Shown here in pieces: positions 3,021-15,998 of a stretch of 64,000 bases of DNA. The notes under the pieces are model-generated. The model worked only from the letters and a program-made list of their open reading frames with translations, did not search any database and was not told the DNA's origin. The position numbers and the translations under genes are program-made. Position 1 is the stretch's first letter, and each line of letters starts with the position of its first letter. The DNA comes from Clostridiales bacterium (lineage in GTDB: Bacteria > Bacillota > Clostridia > Oscillospirales > Oscillospiraceae), in contig JAJQEV010000059.1 of assembly GCA_021201475.1 (NCBI GenBank), positions 10,906-74,905 of the forward strand. The letters are read 5' to 3'.

Positions 3021-3048
3021 CCCCTGAGTTGTTGCAGCAGCTCAGGGG
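3021..3048. terminator. Hairpin at the 3' end of the serine recombinase gene
   Basis: CCCCTGAG and CTCAGGGG form a perfect 8-bp stem with a 12-base loop, overlapping the recombinase stop codon. No T-run follows on the minus strand, so it may be an RNA-stability or attenuating hairpin rather than a full terminator. Confidence 0.4.
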
Positions 3049-3668
3049 TCATTTTTTGTCTCGTACCGCGCCGCCCGGTACCGGAAACTGGAGATTGGCA
3101 TCCCGCACTCCGCAGCCGCCGCCAGACCGGTGATTTTCCCGGCCATCCAGCGCCGGTAAACGTCGTCGAAATTTTCCGGCAGCGGTTTCGGCGGTCTGCC
3201 GAAACGCACCCCTCTGGCGTACGCTGCTGCTATCCCCTCGGCCTGTCGCTGTTTGATATTGACCCGCTCGTTCTCCGCCACAAAGGACAGGACACTTAGC
3301 ACCGTGTCGCAGATAAACGTTGCCATTAGGTTCCGGTCTGTCCGGGTGTCCAGTATCGGCATATCGATCACCACAATGTCCGCGCCCTTCTGCTTCGTCA
3401 CGACCCGCCACTGCTCCAGGATTTCCTCATAGTTCCGTCCCAGCCGGTCAATGCTCTTGATGTACACCACGTCCCGCTTTTTCAGCCGTTTCAGCAGGCG
3501 CTTGTACTGCGGCCGGTCAAAGTCCTTGCCTGACTGCTTGTCCAGGTAGATGTTTCTGTCCTCAACCCCGACCTCGTGCATGGCAATCATCTGCCTGTCC
3601 TCGTTCTGGTCTTTGCTGCTGACCCGGACGTAGCCGTAAACATGGATTTCGCCGCTGTCAATCTGCAT
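3042..3668 (-). CDS. Serine recombinase (resolvase/invertase family)
   Basis: 208 residues. The N-terminal catalytic domain begins GYVRVSSKDQNEDRQ, with the nucleophilic serine at about residue 17 and the family Arg and Asp around IKSIDRLGRNYEEIL. It ends AENERVNIKQRQAEGI, the linker helix, followed by GRPPK and a short C-terminal HTH region. Size matches small resolvases and invertases, not large serine integrases. It probably resolves or inverts DNA of the element; no inversion cassette is visible nearby. The stop lies in a hairpin, and the start overlaps the upstream HTH gene. Confidence 0.9.
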   Translation of the reverse strand: MQIDSGEIHVYGYVRVSSKDQNEDRQMIAMHEVGVEDRNIYLDKQSGKDFDRPQYKRLLKRLKKRDVVYIKSIDRLGRNYEEILEQWRVVTKQKGADIVVIDMPILDTRTDRNLMATFICDTVLSVLSFVAENERVNIKQRQAEGIAAAYARGVRFGRPPKPLPENFDDVYRRWMAGKITGLAAAAECGMPISSFRYRAARYETKNDP

Positions 3669-4926: not shown

Positions 4927-5161
4927 ATTGCATGAAATCCCTCATCCTGTAGGCGATCAGGTGGTCGCCCTGTTCTTCCTCCGCGAACTGTGGCTCTCCG
5001 TGGTCGATGCAGTCCGCCGCCAGCAGATAGTAGTCCTCCTCGTACTCTGTCAGCGCGTCCCGGATCTCCTGCCAGGTGAATTTTCCCCTTTCCTTGCGCA
5101 GGTGCAGGAACCAGTTGCCCTGTTTGTCGTAGTCCGGCCAGACCTCTGTGCCCTTCTTCAT
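4925..5161 (-). CDS. Hypothetical phage protein
   Basis: 78 residues, acidic, beginning MKKGTEVWPDYDKQGNWF, with WQEIRDALTEYEEDYYLLAAD in the middle. Its start overlaps the ParB-like gene's stop by four bases (ATGA), so it is probably co-translated with it. No motif is recognised. Confidence 0.65.
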   Translation of the reverse strand: MKKGTEVWPDYDKQGNWFLHLRKERGKFTWQEIRDALTEYEEDYYLLAADCIDHGEPQFAEEEQGDHLIAYRMRDFMQ

Positions 5162-6606
5162 GCCGGTTCTCCTGTGAAAACAGCATGGCTGCCGTCCTGC
5201 ATGGCCTTCTCCTCGTCGGACAGTTCATAGCCCAGCAGTTCCTCCAGGTCGTTGTAGAGGCTGGTCAGCGTCTTGTCCTTCTTGTGCTGCCATACCCAGA
5301 TTTGCTTCGTGTTGTTCCAGTGGCGGTCATAGTAGCATTGATTCTCGTCTTCGGTGGCGGCGTAGGCCACGGCCAGCAGCTTGTACCCCCACGGGAAGCG
5401 CCTGCTCTGGTCGTCCTGTAGCATTTCCTTCAGGTCTTCGTCGGTGGTCTCGTCGTCGATTTCCAGGTGCAGCAGGTCGGCCAGCAGCTCGCCGTCCACG
5501 TCCCAGCCCCAGCTTCCGCCGATCATGGCGTTGCAGGTAAACGCACAAATCGCCGCCATATCGCTTTCCTTCACCTGGAAGTCCCGGATGAAGGCCGTCC
5601 GCAGTTCTCTGTGCCGCTGGTTGATTTCGCCCAGCTGCTTTCCCCTTTGGTCTTCTTTTTTCTGCGCTTCCTCCTGCTCCCGCTCCTGGTCGGATTGCTC
5701 CTCTGTCTCGTCTGGCTTTTCCCGGTAGATGCTTATGCCGTCCCGTTCCTCTTTGTAGTAATACCGCACGGTGCCCGCGTCCTTTGGCCGCTGGACCTTG
5801 GAATCGGCTTTCCAGTTCCAGGTGCAGTAGCTTTTGACGTAGTTCAGCCCGGGTACATCCTTTCCGTTATCCGCCCACGGCGTGACTTCCGCCAGCCGGG
5901 CTTGTGTGAACGCTTTGTTTTTCTCCGTCTCCTGGGCCTTCCGCAGCTCGTTCTGGAAGTTGGCGGTGCCGATGGTGTCCAGCACCTGGTTCTTCAGTGT
6001 TGTGTCCTTGATTTTGTCCAGCTCCATGTAGTCCTGTAGGGTGGCCCCTCTGGCCTCGCTGGCCTTGAAGCGCTCCTTGTCCAGCGCCAGCAGCTTCACC
6101 CGCCGCCGGATGGTGGAGGCGGAGAAGCCGGAGTCCGCCGCGATTTCCTCCACCGTGCTGCCCAGGTCCAGCATCATCTGGAACCCCTCCGCCTGCTCGT
6201 AGACGGTCAGGTCGGAGCGCTGCATGTTCTCTGTCAGCATGGTTTGCAGCTGTTTCTTCCGGCTCATCTGCGTCACCACGCAGGGAACCTCCGTCAGGCC
6301 CGCTTCCTTCGCCGCTGCCAGCCGCCGGTGCCCGATGATGACGGTGTAGCCGTCCGGGCTCCACTGGCTGTTGGCCGCGTCCTCCAGTGCCTGCGCCAGC
6401 GCTTCGTCCTCCTCGGTCAGGGCACGCTTCTTTGTTTTCAGCCATTCCCCGTGGGTCATGGTGTGCCCCGGTATCACCGTCAGGTTTTGCAGGACGCCGC
6501 TGGCCCGGATGCTGGCTGTCAGCTCGGTCAGGTCGCCCAGGTCTTTTCTGGGGTTGTCCTTGTGCGGATAGATTTTCTTGGTTTCGATGTAGGTCAGTTC
6601 TGCCAT
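5158..6606 (-). CDS. ParB/RepB/Spo0J-like nuclease-domain protein
   Basis: 482 residues. The start MAELTYIETKKIYPHK was chosen because AAGGAGG lies seven bases upstream; a longer frame to 6651 has no such site. The ParB N-terminal fold is shown by HKDNPRKDLGDL (about 15-26), GHRRLAAAKEAG (about 90) and the HTH STVEEIAADSGFSASTIRRR (about 150-170). A charged linker and a C-terminal domain of unknown type (CAFTCNAMIGGSWGW onward) follow. Stand-alone ParB-like proteins are common in phage and ICE early regions, where they act in replication or antirestriction more often than in partition. No parA is visible. Confidence 0.85.
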   Translation of the reverse strand: MAELTYIETKKIYPHKDNPRKDLGDLTELTASIRASGVLQNLTVIPGHTMTHGEWLKTKKRALTEEDEALAQALEDAANSQWSPDGYTVIIGHRRLAAAKEAGLTEVPCVVTQMSRKKQLQTMLTENMQRSDLTVYEQAEGFQMMLDLGSTVEEIAADSGFSASTIRRRVKLLALDKERFKASEARGATLQDYMELDKIKDTTLKNQVLDTIGTANFQNELRKAQETEKNKAFTQARLAEVTPWADNGKDVPGLNYVKSYCTWNWKADSKVQRPKDAGTVRYYYKEERDGISIYREKPDETEEQSDQEREQEEAQKKEDQRGKQLGEINQRHRELRTAFIRDFQVKESDMAAICAFTCNAMIGGSWGWDVDGELLADLLHLEIDDETTDEDLKEMLQDDQSRRFPWGYKLLAVAYAATEDENQCYYDRHWNNTKQIWVWQHKKDKTLTSLYNDLEELLGYELSDEEKAMQDGSHAVFTGEPA

Positions 6607-6647
6607 TTGGTTTTCCTCCTTGTGCTTGTGAATAGTGGTCATGTGGT

Positions 6648-6905
6648 TCACCTCCGCTTGATCGGGTCGAGGGCTGTGTAATCGCTGCCCGCCCGCATCT
6701 GCCGCCGGTCGATGGCGGCTGCCACGTCGATGGCAAGGTATCGGGGCCGCCCGCCGTCCTCCACGGTGTAGCTGTCGATGGAGGACAGGAACTTTTGGGT
6801 GGTGTGGTAGCTTTTCGCCCCGATGTACTCGCCCACCTGCTTGGCCGACAGCGTGTTTCCGTACTGGCGGCGCAGGTCGTCGGCGATTTTACTGCGGTTT
6901 GCCAT
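6648..6905 (-). CDS. Small DNA-binding-like phage protein
   Basis: 85 residues from MANRSKIADDLRRQYG, preceded by AAGGGGG. The segment TLSAKQVGEYIGAKSYHTTQKFL looks like a winged-HTH or excisionase-type fold, and RPRYLAIDVAAAIDRRQM follows. Together these resemble small prophage helix-turn-helix proteins. It lies just upstream of the ParB-like gene and just downstream of leader repeat copy A. A regulatory or excisionase role is inferred. Confidence 0.6.
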   Translation of the reverse strand: MANRSKIADDLRRQYGNTLSAKQVGEYIGAKSYHTTQKFLSSIDSYTVEDGGRPRYLAIDVAAAIDRRQMRAGSDYTALDPIKRR

Positions 6906-8776: not shown

Positions 8777-8905
8777 CCATTCACGCAATCGCGTTTACCT
8801 TCTCTAATATAAACGCTTTTGCGTGAATTGTCAAGCCAAATTTTGCAATTTTTTTCGATATTGCGTAAATTTTTTCTTGACTTTGATTCTGGCAGCCTTT
8901 ACAAT
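8777..8905. promoter_or_regulatory. Divergent promoters and operator of the lysogeny switch
   Basis: Leftward promoter: TTGACA (8834-8829), 17 bases, TATATT (8811-8806). Rightward promoter: TTGACT (8877-8882), 17 bases, TACAAT (8900-8905). Over the leftward promoter lies a symmetrical inverted repeat: TTCACGCAA (8780-8788) and TTGCGTGAA (8819-8827) outside, GCGTTTA (8791-8797) and TAAACGC (8810-8816) inside. A third half-site, TTGCGTAAA, is at 8861-8869 next to the rightward -35. Confidence 0.8.
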
Positions 8906-8931: not shown

Positions 8932-9327
8932 ATGACAATAGAAGAACAGCTAAAGGAAGAAATCCTTTCCAAATATAAGAGTGTCCGCGCTTTTACTTCT
9001 GCCATCAATATTCCATACTCAACATTGGATTCCGTGTTTAAACGTGGAATAAGTGGTGCAGGCATTGGAACAATGTTGAAGGTGTTTGACGCCTTAGACC
9101 TTGACATTGAAAGCATCTCTGGCGGTACTTTGTTCCATAAAGATGAACACTCGTCTTCATCCGATAAAAATTATCTAGCGCCTGACGAATTAAAACTTCT
9201 GGCTGATTACCGTTCTCTGAACAGCGTGGGTCAGGAATACATACGCCAAACAATGTCTATGGCACTTTTGTCCTACGCTGTGGATGGAAAAAATAACACT
9301 GCTCCCGACCTGGAAGCAGTGCAATAA
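8932..9327 (+). CDS. XRE-family phage repressor (CI-like)
   Basis: 131 residues. The N-terminal HTH spans SVRAFTSAINIPYSTLDSVFKRG, then GIGTMLKVFDALDLDIESI. A C-terminal part (LAPDELKLLADYRSLNSVGQEYI) matches the helical tail of many clostridial phage repressors. It lacks a LexA-like peptidase domain, so induction by self-cleavage is unlikely. Ribosome site AAGGAGG. It is the first gene of the rightward lysogeny group and probably binds the three half-sites upstream. Confidence 0.85.
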   Translation: MTIEEQLKEEILSKYKSVRAFTSAINIPYSTLDSVFKRGISGAGIGTMLKVFDALDLDIESISGGTLFHKDEHSSSSDKNYLAPDELKLLADYRSLNSVGQEYIRQTMSMALLSYAVDGKNNTAPDLEAVQ

Positions 9328-10723: not shown

Positions 10724-10759
10724 AAAACCCTCCCCCAGTGTTCCAGCACCGGGGGAGGG
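10722..10759. terminator. Strong hairpin between ybjQ-like gene and integrase
   Basis: CCCTCCCCC and GGGGGAGGG, 9-bp stem, 14-base loop. The A-run at 10722-10727 gives a T-run only on the minus strand, so it would stop leftward transcripts best. Confidence 0.6.
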
Positions 10760-10841: not shown

Positions 10842-12188
10842 ATGGCGCGAAAAAGCAATAATCCAGATATGGATCGCCTGCCGACCCTTCAGGCGGATGG
10901 TCGCTGGCACCACTATTGGACACAGGACGGGCGGCAGCGCCACGTCTCCGCCACGTCTCAGGCAGAGTGCGTCATGGCCTACTATCAGAAATACAAGGAC
11001 ATCGACGCGGGTCTGGTGGACGTGAACCCCAACACGCCGGTGAAGGTGTGGGCGCAGCAGTGGTTTGAAACTTATAAAGCGGACAGGGAAATGACGGAAA
11101 AATCCCGCCGGATGTATCAGGAAAAGCTGAACGGCTATATTCTTCCCGCCATTGGCCGGTATCCGCTGCGGAGCGTCACGGAGCTGCACCTCCAGCGGAT
11201 TTTGAATGATTCCGCCGGTATGTCCGGCAGCCACCTGAAGAAGCTCCGCTGCACCATGCGGGAGCTGTTCGGGAAAGCCTACGATTTGGGGTATATCCCA
11301 CGGAACCCCGCCTCCGGGCTGGAACTGCCCGCCTGTTCGGAGCGCAAGCGCCGCAGTCTGACCCCGCAGGAGCGGGAAGCCTTCAACGCGATTTGCGCAG
11401 AAGGGAAGCACCGGGGGTGTCTGTTTTATCAGACGATGCTGCTGTGCGGCCTGCGCCCCGGAGAGTGCGCCGCGCTGCAATGGAAGCACATATCCTTTGA
11501 CCGCGCCATGCTCCACGTCGAGCAGGCAAAGGAATCCGGCTGCACGACGGTGAAAGAGCCGAAAACGGCCTCCGGCGTCCGGGATGTCCCAATCCCGCCG
11601 AAGCTGCTGCAAGCGTTGAAAGCTGTGCAGGGATTCCCGACCGCCCCTGTTTTCCCCCGCGAAAACGGGACGGCCCACACTGACGACAGTCTTCGGGCCA
11701 TGTGGACAAGCTGGAAGCGGCAGATGGATCGAACGATGGCCTTCCGCCTGGTGGAAAAGGCCCATGCAGCGCCGGACGATGACGCGGCGCTGCTGCTCCT
11801 TGCCATCGGCTCTGCCACAGCCAATCTGGGGCTGGATGTGCTGCTGTTTTCCTGCCTGGGTACCATTGGGCCTGCCGTGGCGACCCTGGCTGTCACGGGG
11901 ATAACCGGCCTCCTGATGATGTATTTAAGCGCAAAAGAACTGGGCGGCAGGATGCCTGACCTCGTTGACGCGCCCTTTTTGGTGCGTTTTGCGGCGGCGA
12001 ATGCCGCTCTGTCCGGCCTGCTCTTTGTCCTGCGCACCCGGCTGGAGCAGGCGGGGGTGCAGGATTGGCTGACGCTGCTCCTGCTCTGCGCTGCCTATGG
12101 TGTGACCATGTGCGCACTGTACGGGAGGCGGCTCCTGCAGGATTTACGGGACATCAGCGGCGTTTCACAGGGGAGGACAGCGAGATGA
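10842..12188 (+). CDS. Chimeric ORF: truncated tyrosine integrase fused to C-terminal part of a polysaccharide flippase
   Basis: 448 residues. Residues 1 to about 296 are a phage tyrosine integrase: an AP2-like N-terminus (GRWHHYWTQDGRQRHVS), a SAM-like core-binding domain, and the start of the catalytic domain with its first arginine (LLCGLRPGECAALQW). It stops near WTSWKRQMD, before the HxxR box and the nucleophilic tyrosine, so it cannot recombine DNA. From about 11,728 the frame continues as hydrophobic sequence (LGLDVLLFSCLG, VTGITGLLMMYLS) like the last helices of a Wzx flippase. The stop overlaps the capF start, as expected for wzx in that operon. It is either a deletion scar or an assembly join. 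Confidence 0.8.
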   Translation: MARKSNNPDMDRLPTLQADGRWHHYWTQDGRQRHVSATSQAECVMAYYQKYKDIDAGLVDVNPNTPVKVWAQQWFETYKADREMTEKSRRMYQEKLNGYILPAIGRYPLRSVTELHLQRILNDSAGMSGSHLKKLRCTMRELFGKAYDLGYIPRNPASGLELPACSERKRRSLTPQEREAFNAICAEGKHRGCLFYQTMLLCGLRPGECAALQWKHISFDRAMLHVEQAKESGCTTVKEPKTASGVRDVPIPPKLLQALKAVQGFPTAPVFPRENGTAHTDDSLRAMWTSWKRQMDRTMAFRLVEKAHAAPDDDAALLLLAIGSATANLGLDVLLFSCLGTIGPAVATLAVTGITGLLMMYLSAKELGGRMPDLVDAPFLVRFAAANAALSGLLFVLRTRLEQAGVQDWLTLLLLCAAYGVTMCALYGRRLLQDLRDISGVSQGRTAR

Positions 12189-13393
12189 ATCTTCTGGTGA
12201 CCGGCGCGAAGGGCTTCGTAGGGCGGAACCTGTGCGCCTCTCTGCGGAACCTTCAAACGGGCAAGGACAGGACGAGGCAGCTCAAAATCGATGAGATTTT
12301 TGAGTTTGATTTGGATACCGACCCAGCTATGCTGGACCTTTTCTGCCAGAAGGCGGACTTCGTTTTTCATTTGGCCGGAGTCAACCGGCCCAGGGATGAC
12401 GCTGACTATATGCCGGGCAATTTCGGGTTCACGTCCGTTTTGCTTGAGACGTTGAAGAAGTACGGCAACACCTGCGCGGTAATGCTGGCCTCTTCCATAC
12501 AGGCATCCCTGGTCGGGCGTTATGCAGGCTCCGCATACGGCGAATCAAAGCTGGCGGCAGAAGATCTGCTGCTTCATTATGCGGATGAGACCGGGGCCAG
12601 GGTGCTGGTTTACCGCCTTCCCAACCTGTTCGGCAAATGGTGCCGCCCCAACTACAATTCCGTGGTGGCCACCCTTTGTAGTAGCATTGCAAAGGGTTTT
12701 CCCTTTACAATCGATGACTCTGATACAGAGCTGACGCTGCTCTATATCGATGATTTGCTGGACGGCCTGCTGGACGCCCTAGAGGGGCGGGCGAAGCGCT
12801 GTGAGTACGAAGGGCTGACGGTCATTCCCATGCCGCAGGGTCGTTACTGCTACGTTCCAACGGTGCATCGGGTCACGTTGGGGGAGCTTGTGGCGCAGCT
12901 GCAAATATTTCACGCCCAGCCGCAAACCCTGATGCTGCCGGAGCTTCCGGAAGGCTCTTTTGCCGGGAAGCTGTATGCGACCTACCTGTCCTACCTGCCG
13001 AAGGAAAAGGTCGCGTTTCCGCTGAAAACGAATGTGGACCCGCGAGGCGGCTTTACCGAGCTGCTGAAAACACCCAGCGGCGGACAGTTCAGCGTGTGCG
13101 TTTCCCGCCCGGGCCGCACCAGGGGGCAGCATTGGCACCACAGCAAATGGGAGCTTTTCATCGTGGTGGCCGGTCACGGCCTGATTCGGGAACGGAACAT
13201 CTGGTCAGATGAGGTGCTGGAATTTGAGGTGTCCGGGGAGCATCTGACGGCGGTTTATATGCTGCCCGGCTATACGCACGACCTCATCAATCTCTCACAG
13301 ACGGAGAACCTGGTGACGGTGATGTGGGCCAGTGAAGTATTTGACCCTCAGAGCCCGGATACCTTTTCAGAGCCGGTGGAGGTGGAGCAATAA
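12185..13393 (+). CDS. capF: CapF, bifunctional UDP-sugar epimerase/reductase (UDP-L-FucNAc pathway)
   Basis: 402 residues. The N-terminal short-chain dehydrogenase domain has the NAD(P) motif TGAKGFVG (6-13) and SAYGESKLAAE with the catalytic Tyr and Lys. The C-terminal cupin domain carries GQHWHHSKWELF, the zinc-binding histidines of CapF. Two-domain CapF/FnlB converts the CapE product to UDP-2-acetamido-2,6-dideoxy-L-talose on the way to UDP-N-acetyl-L-fucosamine. It is directly followed by capG. CapE is not in the window; it may lie on the lost side of the flippase remnant. Confidence 0.9.
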   Translation: MNLLVTGAKGFVGRNLCASLRNLQTGKDRTRQLKIDEIFEFDLDTDPAMLDLFCQKADFVFHLAGVNRPRDDADYMPGNFGFTSVLLETLKKYGNTCAVMLASSIQASLVGRYAGSAYGESKLAAEDLLLHYADETGARVLVYRLPNLFGKWCRPNYNSVVATLCSSIAKGFPFTIDDSDTELTLLYIDDLLDGLLDALEGRAKRCEYEGLTVIPMPQGRYCYVPTVHRVTLGELVAQLQIFHAQPQTLMLPELPEGSFAGKLYATYLSYLPKEKVAFPLKTNVDPRGGFTELLKTPSGGQFSVCVSRPGRTRGQHWHHSKWELFIVVAGHGLIRERNIWSDEVLEFEVSGEHLTAVYMLPGYTHDLINLSQTENLVTVMWASEVFDPQSPDTFSEPVEVEQ

Positions 13394-14587
13394 GTGGGAT
13401 GTAAACTGGATTATACGGATGTCTCCTTCCGGCAGGACGGCAGGCTAAAGCTGCTGATTATCGTGGGGACGCGGCCTGAAATCATCCGCCTGTCGGAGGT
13501 CATCCGCAAATGCAGGCGGTACTTTGACACCCTCCTGGCCCACACCGGGCAGAACTATGACTACAATCTCAACGGTGTCTTCTTTCGAGACCTGAAACTG
13601 GACGCGCCGGAGGTCTATATGGACGCGGTGGGGGAGGACCTGGGGGCCACCATTGGCAATATCATCAGCTGCTCCTACAAACTGATGGCGCAGGTCAGAC
13701 CGGACGCCTTGCTGATTCTGGGGGACACCAATTCCTGCCTGTCGGCTATCGCAGCGAAGCGCCTGCACATTCCCATCTTCCACATGGAGGCGGGAAACCG
13801 CTGCAAGGACGAATGTCTGCCGGAGGAAACGAACCGGCGCATCGTGGACATCATCTCCGACGTGAATCTGGCCTACTCGGAACAGGCCAGGCAGCACCTG
13901 CACGAGTGCGGCCTGCCCAGGGAGCGCACCTTTGTGACCGGCTCCCCCATGGCCGAGGTGCTGCGCCGCAGTCTACCGGAAATCGAGGGCAGCGATATTC
14001 ATGCCCGCGTGGGGTTGGAAAAGGGCAGGTATATCCTGCTCTCCGCCCACCGGGAGGAGAATCTTGACACAGAGAGGAATTTCCGCTCCCTGTTTACGGC
14101 AATCAACGCCCTGGCGGAGCGCTACGACCTGCCCATTTTGTACTCCTGTCATCCCCGTGCGCGGAAACGGCTGGAGGCCAGCGGCTTTACGCTGGATCGG
14201 CGGGTAATGCCCCATGAGCCGCTGGGCTTCCATGACTATAACTGCCTGCAAATGCACGCCTTCGCCGTGGTGTCAGACAGCGGGACGCTGCCGGAGGAGG
14301 CCAGCTTCTTCGCGTCCATCGGGCGGCCCTTTCCGGCGGTCTGTATCCGCACCTCCACAGAGCGGCCCGAGGCCATGGAGCGGGGCTGCTTCGTGCTGGC
14401 AGGCATTGAGACGGCGTCACTGCTCCAGGGGGTGGAAACGGCGGTGCATCTGCACAGGGACGGCGCGTATGGAACGCCTGTGCCGGACTACCAGGCGGAA
14501 TCCGTGTCCACCAGGGTGGTGAAAATCATCCAGTCCTACACCGCCATCGTCGACCGTCTGGTCTGGCGGAAGGAGCAGCCCAGATGA
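13394..14587 (+). CDS. capG: CapG, UDP-N-acetylglucosamine 2-epimerase family
   Basis: 397 residues from a GTG immediately after the capF stop, with GGAGGTGGAG upstream. Family motifs: VGTRPEIIRLSEV, GDTNSCLSA, HMEAGNRC, LSAHREEN and SDSGTLPEEAS. WecB-like enzymes of this subgroup (CapG/FnlC) make UDP-L-FucNAc from the CapF product by C2 epimerisation. The pair with capF points to L-FucNAc in the capsule or exopolysaccharide. Confidence 0.9.
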   Translation: MGCKLDYTDVSFRQDGRLKLLIIVGTRPEIIRLSEVIRKCRRYFDTLLAHTGQNYDYNLNGVFFRDLKLDAPEVYMDAVGEDLGATIGNIISCSYKLMAQVRPDALLILGDTNSCLSAIAAKRLHIPIFHMEAGNRCKDECLPEETNRRIVDIISDVNLAYSEQARQHLHECGLPRERTFVTGSPMAEVLRRSLPEIEGSDIHARVGLEKGRYILLSAHREENLDTERNFRSLFTAINALAERYDLPILYSCHPRARKRLEASGFTLDRRVMPHEPLGFHDYNCLQMHAFAVVSDSGTLPEEASFFASIGRPFPAVCIRTSTERPEAMERGCFVLAGIETASLLQGVETAVHLHRDGAYGTPVPDYQAESVSTRVVKIIQSYTAIVDRLVWRKEQPR

Positions 14588-15363
14588 ATGCTGCACAGCC
14601 GGAGGGGAGGAGCGAAATGGAAGCAATGGATGCAGCACCGGCAAGGTGTATTACAATCAGGGACTTTTGGAGCGTCTTTGTCCGCCATTTATGGACGATC
14701 GTTCTGGCCGCGCCCCTGGCGATGGGGCTAACGTTTGCGGCTGTGCAGTTGGCCCTTCCGCCGCTGTACGCCTCAACAGCGACGCTGTACATCCTGTACC
14801 AAAATGAGGAGGACGGCGCGGTCAATACGGCCTCAGATTTCTCACTGGCGCTGAATGTGGTCAATGACTGCACCTATCTGCTCAAGAGCCACGCGGTTTT
14901 AGACGAGGTCATCGACGCATTACAGCTGACGGTAGACTATGAGGAGTTGTATGACCGCATTTCCACCGCAAACCCGGAGGACACCCGAATTTTAGAGGTG
15001 GCAGTTCAGGCGGAAACGCCAGAGCTTGCAAAGGAAATCGTGGATGTGCTGTGTGAAATTGGTCAGGATAAAATTACGGATGCTATGGGCTTTCAGCAGG
15101 TGCATTTTTTTGAAACGGGGACGCTGGACAGCGAGCCGAGCAATCGGTTCAGCGCCGTGTCCTATCTGCTGATCGGCATGATTGCCTCGGTGCTGGTCTA
15201 CTCCGCCTTCCTGATTGCGTTCCTGCTGAATGACAGGATGGACACGGCGGAGGACATTCAGCAATATCTGGGGCTGAACGTCCTGGGCGAGATACCCAAC
15301 GCAGACAGGGCGGCGCGAGCAGTCAGCGGCTTTGGCCGCAAAAGGGGGGACCAGAGGAGATGA
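14584..15363 (+). CDS. Wzz/CapA-type polysaccharide chain-length modulator
   Basis: 259 residues. Two membrane helices (about 40-62 and 193-215) flank an extracellular domain; the second is followed by the short cytosolic tail that in Gram-positives activates the partner tyrosine kinase. Two starts are possible: ATG at 14584, overlapping the capG stop, or ATG at 14617 preceded by GGGGAGGAG. It ends four bases into the kinase gene. The two together usually control polymer length and export. Confidence 0.85.
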   Translation: MNAAQPEGRSEMEAMDAAPARCITIRDFWSVFVRHLWTIVLAAPLAMGLTFAAVQLALPPLYASTATLYILYQNEEDGAVNTASDFSLALNVVNDCTYLLKSHAVLDEVIDALQLTVDYEELYDRISTANPEDTRILEVAVQAETPELAKEIVDVLCEIGQDKITDAMGFQQVHFFETGTLDSEPSNRFSAVSYLLIGMIASVLVYSAFLIAFLLNDRMDTAEDIQQYLGLNVLGEIPNADRAARAVSGFGRKRGDQRR

Positions 15364-15998
15364 ACTGTGTCACGCTGACGCTGCCGGAACGGGACAGCGC
15401 CCTTCTCCGGACGGCGTATCAGACTCTTTGTGTCAACCTGCTGTTCTCCTGTCAGGAGCGGACTGTGATTGCCGTCACAAGCTGTGAGAAGGGGGAAGGG
15501 AAGACCACCGTTTCCCTCAACATCGCAAGGTACCTGGCAGAGCTGGGGAAAACGGCGCTTGTCCTTGACGCTGACCTGAGAAGCTCTGTAATGGCGGAGA
15601 GAAATGCCGCACTGAATGCAGCAGCGGGGCTGACTGAGGTCCTGACCGGGCAGCGTTCCTTCGACGACTGCCTGTATACAACGCAGCATCAGAAGATGCT
15701 TCTCCTGTTTGCAGGAGTCTGCCCGTCCAACCCGTTGGAGCTTCTGAACGGGAGCCGGTTTCGTACGCTGCTGGATGAGCTGCGGAAGCAGTATGACTTT
15801 GTCCTGGTCGATACGCCGCCGCTGGGAGCATTCGTCGATGCGGCAGTGGTTGCCGCCCAGTGCGACGGCGCAATTTTGGTGATAGGGGACAGGTCTGCAC
15901 GACGCGAGCGGGCGCAGGCCGTTGCGGCGCAGCTGAAAAAGCGCGGCGAACTCTTTGGCGTTGTCCGGAATCATACCGGAAAAAGGCGAACAGATTGA
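15360..15998 (+). CDS. BY-kinase-like capsular ATPase lacking the tyrosine tail
   Basis: 212 residues. Walker A CEKGEGKTT (about 42-50), Walker A' LVLDADLR and Walker B FVLVDTPP are all present, as in CpsD/YwqD bacterial tyrosine kinases. The protein ends GVVRNHTGKRRTD with no tyrosines after Walker B, so the usual autophosphorylated Tyr cluster is missing. It may be inactive in phosphate relay, regulated in another way, or truncated. The overlap with the Wzz-like gene fixes its partner. Confidence 0.8.
   Translation: MNCVTLTLPERDSALLRTAYQTLCVNLLFSCQERTVIAVTSCEKGEGKTTVSLNIARYLAELGKTALVLDADLRSSVMAERNAALNAAAGLTEVLTGQRSFDDCLYTTQHQKMLLLFAGVCPSNPLELLNGSRFRTLLDELRKQYDFVLVDTPPLGAFVDAAVVAAQCDGAILVIGDRSARRERAQAVAAQLKKRGELFGVVRNHTGKRRTD

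Follow-up and report, generated by a model that had tools for sequence, protein, structure and literature searches.

The stretch of DNA analyzed here (the window; 64,000 nucleotides of contig C100 of a Clostridiales draft genome) carries at 10842-12188 an open reading frame (ORF) of 448 codons, which is open throughout and whose TGA overlaps the ATG of a capF-like gene at 12185. The ORF joins, head to tail, a truncated tyrosine integrase (residues 1 to ~317) and the last ~130 residues of a Wzx flippase. The preliminary description had read the same frame from an integrase into the end of a Wzx-like flippase overlapping capF, and the open 448-codon ORF and the congener alignments confirmed that this fusion of an integrase stump and a flippase stump is real. 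Alignment against the wzx genes of three congeners and the L018 integrase placed a putative deletion junction at 11781-11795 (+ strand). The two parts meet abruptly, at a 7-8 bp identity (TGCTCCT) common to integrase and wzx. No run of N is present there; the nearest scaffold gap, 100 N at C100:10806-10905, ends exactly at the window start (window:1). Integrase homology had been described as stopping near 11,728, but the alignment to the L018 integrase carries similarity to ~11,780-11,790; the interval 11,728-11,780 matches a linker within the catalytic domain of the intact integrase, and the earlier limit was ~50 bases too far left. A search for the exact junction in viral_contigs and genome_contigs, with near-identical records left out, gave no match, and none of the other genomes searched carries the fusion ORF.

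The integrase part (10842-11783, + strand) was recognized as a truncated prophage tyrosine integrase by identity to L018, by Pfam and by alignment with 12 intact integrases. Phage_int_SAM_3, Phage_int_M and Phage_integrase domains were found at fusion residues 70-294, and the intact 428-aa integrase of a congener (L018:2503-3786) was 72% identical across residues 1-326, the similarity being clear as far as ~317. The second half of the catalytic domain is missing. Of the active tyrosine recombinase set (R...K...H/Y-xxR...H...Y), the fusion retains only Arg-I (GLRPGE, residue 203) and the beta-hairpin Lys (KEPKT, residue 238), whereas the box-II YDLRH (L018 residue 370), the MGH (394) and the nucleophile box IYSH (405) of the intact integrases are absent, in agreement with the earlier statement that integrase similarity ends before HxxR and the catalytic tyrosine. 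Because YDLRH, MGH and the Tyr nucleophile are missing, the fusion should not act as a recombinase, and we infer that the integrase is dead.

Integrase relatives from the same bacterial family were 33-44% identical. Three of the closest intact ones (L038, L039 and L042; 41-44% identity) resemble the window integrase in belonging to prophages and in the tRNA at their attachment site; unlike the fusion, they are intact with a Tyr box and adjoin a downstream 3' fragment of tRNA-Arg(CCG). No integrase relatives were found in viral_contigs. The nearest relative (72%, G010, L018:2503-3914) lies beside a 3' fragment of tRNA-Gln(CTG) next to leuS, not beside tRNA-Arg. Within this one integrase lineage, the attachment site thus appears to have switched between tRNA-Gln(CTG) in the 72% relative and tRNA-Arg in more distant relatives.

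The flippase part (11788-12188, + strand) is the 3' remnant of a wzx gene, encoding the last ~130 of 497 aa with four predicted transmembrane helices, and shows 84-89% DNA identity to the intact wzx of G006, G010 and G020. From exactly 11,788 rightward, the window is collinear with these three congeners (G006:C126, G010:C113, G020:C149) at 86-91% DNA identity. All three carry an intact 497-aa wzx, to whose 3' end the homologous stretch of the window corresponds, and at least 7 kb of DNA upstream of the 11,788 point. Their gene order is glycosyltransferase-wzx-capF-capG-wzz-wze, all intact, and upstream of wzx and the glycosyltransferase follow, on the other strand, genes for a DUF3048 lipoprotein, an LRR protein, a VWA protein and a MoxR-type ATPase. 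The related-genome comparison that the preliminary description had called for thus revealed an intact wzx locus in each of the three. Wzx proteins have about 12-14 transmembrane helices and an N-terminal Polysacc_synt domain; Polysacc_synt_3 was detected on the G010 flippase (E=3.6e-19), whereas the remnant gave no Polysacc_synt match and keeps 4 of the 12 predicted helices. With so few helices left, the fusion should not act as a flippase either, and this Wzx appears to be non-functional. Changes private to the window lineage in the wzx tail (4 nonsynonymous, 11 synonymous) were similar to those in neighboring intact genes. This lack of relaxation suggests that the deletion event was probably recent, although the counts are small and carry little statistical power.

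Downstream of the fusion, four capsule genes are intact on the + strand. These encode a capF-like UDP-2-acetamido-2,6-dideoxy-hexulose reductase (12185-13393; NCBIfam NF047837, E=1e-100, below the curated cut-off; PF14667, PF01370), a capG/wecB-like UDP-GlcNAc 2-epimerase (13394-14587; PF02350, E=9e-77; TIGR00236), a wzz chain-length determinant (14584-15363; PF02706, TIGR01006) and a wze/CapB-like tyrosine autokinase (15360-15998; TIGR01007, above the cut-off). In genome_contigs, the homologues of capF were all distant, with identities no higher than 68%. Compared with the congeners, the glycosyltransferase gene and wzx codons 1 to ~367 are gone, consistent with the earlier claim that the capsule operon lost its 5' part. 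The same claim had included capE, but this gene is intact on a different contig in 4/4 genomes, and it is the glycosyltransferase that precedes wzx in the congeners.

Upstream, the window contains the early region of a prophage. Its genes on the - strand include a serine resolvase/DNA invertase (3042-3668; phrog_125, E=1e-49) and a ParB-like protein (5158-6651; phrog_6218, E=3e-74) with relatives in 15 viral contigs. To the left of the window, C100 carries genes for Rep, a Holliday junction resolvase, a methyltransferase, a transcription regulator and a small terminase (terS1). Contig C27 of the same genome carries, from its start, a second small terminase (terS2), a GpA terminase (TerL), portal, protease, capsid and sheath genes and then tail genes running toward a tRNA-Arg, and it also holds the tape measure and lysis genes. 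In 18 viral contigs (IMG/VR), some of which are close relatives of each other, a homologue of the C100 terS1 lies beside a homologue of the C27 terS2, followed by a C27-type TerL and usually by portal, protease and capsid genes. This adjacency, that is, gene order in other phages, suggests that C100 and C27 carry the two halves of one ~57 kb prophage. There is no overlap between the ends of C27 and C100, and repetitive sequence marks the C100 end. Dispersed repeat families of 36-130 nt in 3-7 copies occur in the prophage intergenic regions (L002:1-4600; window:6900-8600), for example TGAAATTTTT..CCCGGTTT and TTCATTCCGTTCCGTCGCCGTCGCT, and may cause contig breaks. The two different small-terminase-like genes in a row (phrog_1889, L002:4607-5395; phrog_57, L030:406-1056) followed by a GpA-type large terminase mark a phage type that is conserved in the 18 viral contigs. 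No PF03354 terminase, the wrong family for this phage, was found in the genome. A terminase on contig C29 was also considered as part of the missing half and rejected; C29 holds the remnant of another phage with its own terS, and C27 fits the 18-contig gene order.

The late half of the prophage abuts the 3' end of tRNA-Arg(CCG) on C27. Similarity of C27 to the congeners stops within ~6 nt of the tRNA-Arg 3' end, and phage lysis genes lie beyond it. The genes in this direction comprise an HNH-like gene, a GH25 lysin, a diversity-generating retroelement and tail genes. The retroelement (L031:4718-12491 = C27:22117-29890) consists of a 1898-aa variable protein, a small Avd-sized ORF and a reverse transcriptase, with a TR/VR of 122 nt in which 11/12 differences fall at template adenines. 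Independently, the position of L038, L039 and L042 beside tRNA-Arg(CCG) 3' fragments indicates tRNA-Arg(CCG) as the attB of the window's prophage, so both prophage ends appear to converge on one locus. For this prophage, the tRNA-Gln site beside leuS that the 72% relative in G010 occupies was considered and rejected, since the late end is at tRNA-Arg and L038, L039 and L042 use tRNA-Arg. In the congeners, tRNA-Arg(CCG) lies upstream of the breakpoint by 8,815 bp (G006) and 8,383 bp (G010); in G020 its position falls in an assembly break. The ancestral state was thus reconstructed from three congeners, and the tRNA-Arg distance from two. In the genome carrying the fusion, a search allowing up to 3 mismatches found the tRNA-Arg core just once, which indicates that attR, the right attachment site, is gone. 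Together with the missing integrase 3' end, this upholds the earlier view that the element lost its right end and attachment site. A rearrangement has left this genome and G010/G006 with different DNA upstream of tRNA-Arg, and the locus therefore has a history of breakage. The G010 rearrangement breakpoint is ~70 bp upstream of tRNA-Arg(CCG), and G006 similarity ends at the same place; the DNA upstream of the tRNA in these two also differs from that of G014 and G016 (L033:501-17600 vs C27:34510, C100:57763-72673).

The observations comprise the fusion, intact homologues on both sides of it, the absence of the DNA expected between them and of an attR copy, and two prophage halves that lead to the same locus. 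Integration at tRNA-Arg followed by a deletion that stranded the prophage beside the capsule genes very probably accounts for them. Using its own tyrosine integrase, a temperate myovirus-like phage would have inserted into the 3' end of tRNA-Arg(CCG). In this species group the tRNA gene immediately precedes the MoxR/VWA...GT-wzx-capF-capG-wzz-wze region, and the prophage would have come to lie between the two. Later, a single deletion from within the integrase gene to within wzx, its ends probably set by the short microhomology, would have taken the last ~110 integrase codons, the right attachment site, wzx codons 1 to ~367 and ~8.4-8.8 kb of host DNA with the genes for the MoxR-type ATPase, VWA protein, LRR protein, DUF3048 lipoprotein and glycosyltransferase, ~9 kb overall. 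The reading frames would have matched by chance, making the integrase and wzx stumps one ORF. We infer a single, microhomology-mediated event after integration. The 8.4 kb upstream region of the congeners was sought in the assembly and was absent save for the tRNA, short chance-like matches aside, as was the wzx 5' half, for which the preliminary description had suggested a search. Its suggestion that a deletion trapped a prophage in a capsule locus is supported by this missing DNA and by the two prophage ends at the same locus.

The species is represented by one genome, a 129-contig draft, and the deletion account rests on sequence comparison. An assembly chimera was weighed as a rival, in which a prophage contig and a capsule contig were misjoined at 11,788 and the true genome holds an intact integrase with attR and an intact wzx. 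The number of contigs, the 100-N scaffold gap and the failure to find a second genome with the junction in viral_contigs or genome_contigs (near-identical records left out) would fit such an artifact. However, there is no N at the junction, and a common word of 7-8 bp is too short for k-mer assembly to join on. The other prophage end lies independently at the tRNA-Arg that adjoins the same capsule locus in the congeners; given a genome of 2.7 Mb, the probability that a random misjoin falls within 9 kb of the element's own attB is well below 1%. Nor does the assembly contain the pieces that a misjoin should leave over (integrase 3' end, attR, glycosyltransferase, wzx 5' half). A random contig join is thus unlikely: the joined capsule locus is the neighbor of the very site at which the prophage attaches, and no displaced piece is found elsewhere.

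Two further explanations accept the junction as real and differ from the deletion account in its origin or meaning. Temperate elements can use secondary sites, and the element ends in its integrase gene, so the junction could be an attachment site made by the integrase inside wzx. The junction, however, lies within the integrase coding region, ~330 bp before the expected stop, whereas attP of the relatives follows the stop at the tRNA fragment; the other prophage end is at tRNA-Arg rather than at the wzx 5' half, which is absent. These positions make an integrase-made junction scarcely credible. The fusion might instead have been selected, as a membrane-tethered DNA-binding regulator or for prophage control of the capsule precursor genes. 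In favor of this, one frame stays open across both parts, the flippase part has no excess of nonsynonymous change, and the same-strand lysogeny operon reads into capF with no predicted + strand terminator after int. A match in frame, however, is expected by chance in 1 of 3 joins, and the event may just be a recent one. With half of the integrase catalytic domain gone, the hybrid is likely to misfold, and no other genome searched carries the fusion. A selected function is very improbable, and the hybrid ORF of two gene stumps is probably meaningless.

Transcription across the junction concerns the genes downstream of this ORF. A sigma-70-like promoter (8877-8905, + strand; TTGACT-17-TACAAT, 10/12, a consensus match only) precedes the rightward operon that ends in the integrase, and a divergent promoter-like site is found on the - strand at 8834. 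The first gene of the operon encodes a repressor-like HTH protein (8932-9327, + strand; phrog_8522 HTH DNA binding protein). A strong hairpin at 10728-10759 has a T-run on the - strand only and is unlike a terminator for rightward transcription, and no strong + strand terminator was found between int or the junction and capF. The operon now continues into capF, and capF-capG-wzz-wze could possibly be read from this lysogeny operon. It is unlikely, on present evidence, that the four genes lost their own promoter and are transcribed with the repressor-integrase operon, with precursor synthesis following the lysogenic state. If this were true, a prophage unable to leave would be a regulator of a surface-sugar cluster.

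Structural and packaging genes are present (terS1 on C100; terS2, GpA TerL, portal, capsid, sheath, tape measure and lysis genes on C27), the excision recombinase appears inactivated and the attachment site lost, and the prophage should be unable to excise, i.e. grounded. Grounded (cryptic, defective) prophages such as DLP12, Rac and Qin of E. coli have been described (Ramisetty and Sudhakari 2019, PMC6379469), and as in these, loss of recombinase and attachment site would prevent excision. In contrast to them, the deletion here extends into a polysaccharide cluster and yields an in-frame hybrid ORF with a flippase. An excision-defective ICEBs1 delta-attR loses viability upon induction (PMC3715440). 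It is likewise an integrated element without one att site, but it is an engineered ICE and the present element a natural prophage; by analogy, induction here could carry a similar viability cost. Prophages that target tRNA genes, prophages grounded once int and att are lost, deletions that reach flanking genes and chimeric ORFs are all known, and the combination is a well-resolved new example rather than a new kind of system. A literature search found no report of this case. One deletion would both have stranded a temperate phage and damaged a surface-polysaccharide cluster. It would be a commonplace accident of genome decay that can be clearly reconstructed, and a clean natural example with the intact ancestral arrangement in three congeners. 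The case also illustrates that, even without reads, a chimeric-looking ORF in a draft genome may be distinguished from a probable misassembly by testing whether the two element ends indicate one locus. Gene-prediction pipelines would call the ORF an integrase or a flippase, and it should be neither.

For the capsule locus, the comparison suggests the loss of this Wzx and of a glycosyltransferase. Another, unrelated flippase with a polymerase-like neighbor is encoded on C121 of the same genome and might or might not substitute for the lost Wzx. The GT-wzx-capF-capG-wzz-wze order of the congeners resembles Wzx/Wzy-type capsule clusters with CapE-CapF-CapG (L-FucNAc-type precursor). Unlike in those clusters, the genes here lie in two loci and wzx is truncated, and capE is not adjacent to capF/capG but on another contig. 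In the genome carrying the fusion, capE is on C29 (L278:2826-8431), in a second polysaccharide locus with wzy-like, LicD, glycosyltransferase and initiating transferase genes. One CapE/F/G-type pathway thus appears split between this locus, with capE, wzy-like, LicD and initiating transferase genes, and the window (11788-15998), to which GT, wzx, capF, capG, wzz and wze belong. The same contig as the capE locus, C29, also carries the second phage remnant (L065:248-9785), with its own small and large terminase, portal and capsid genes.
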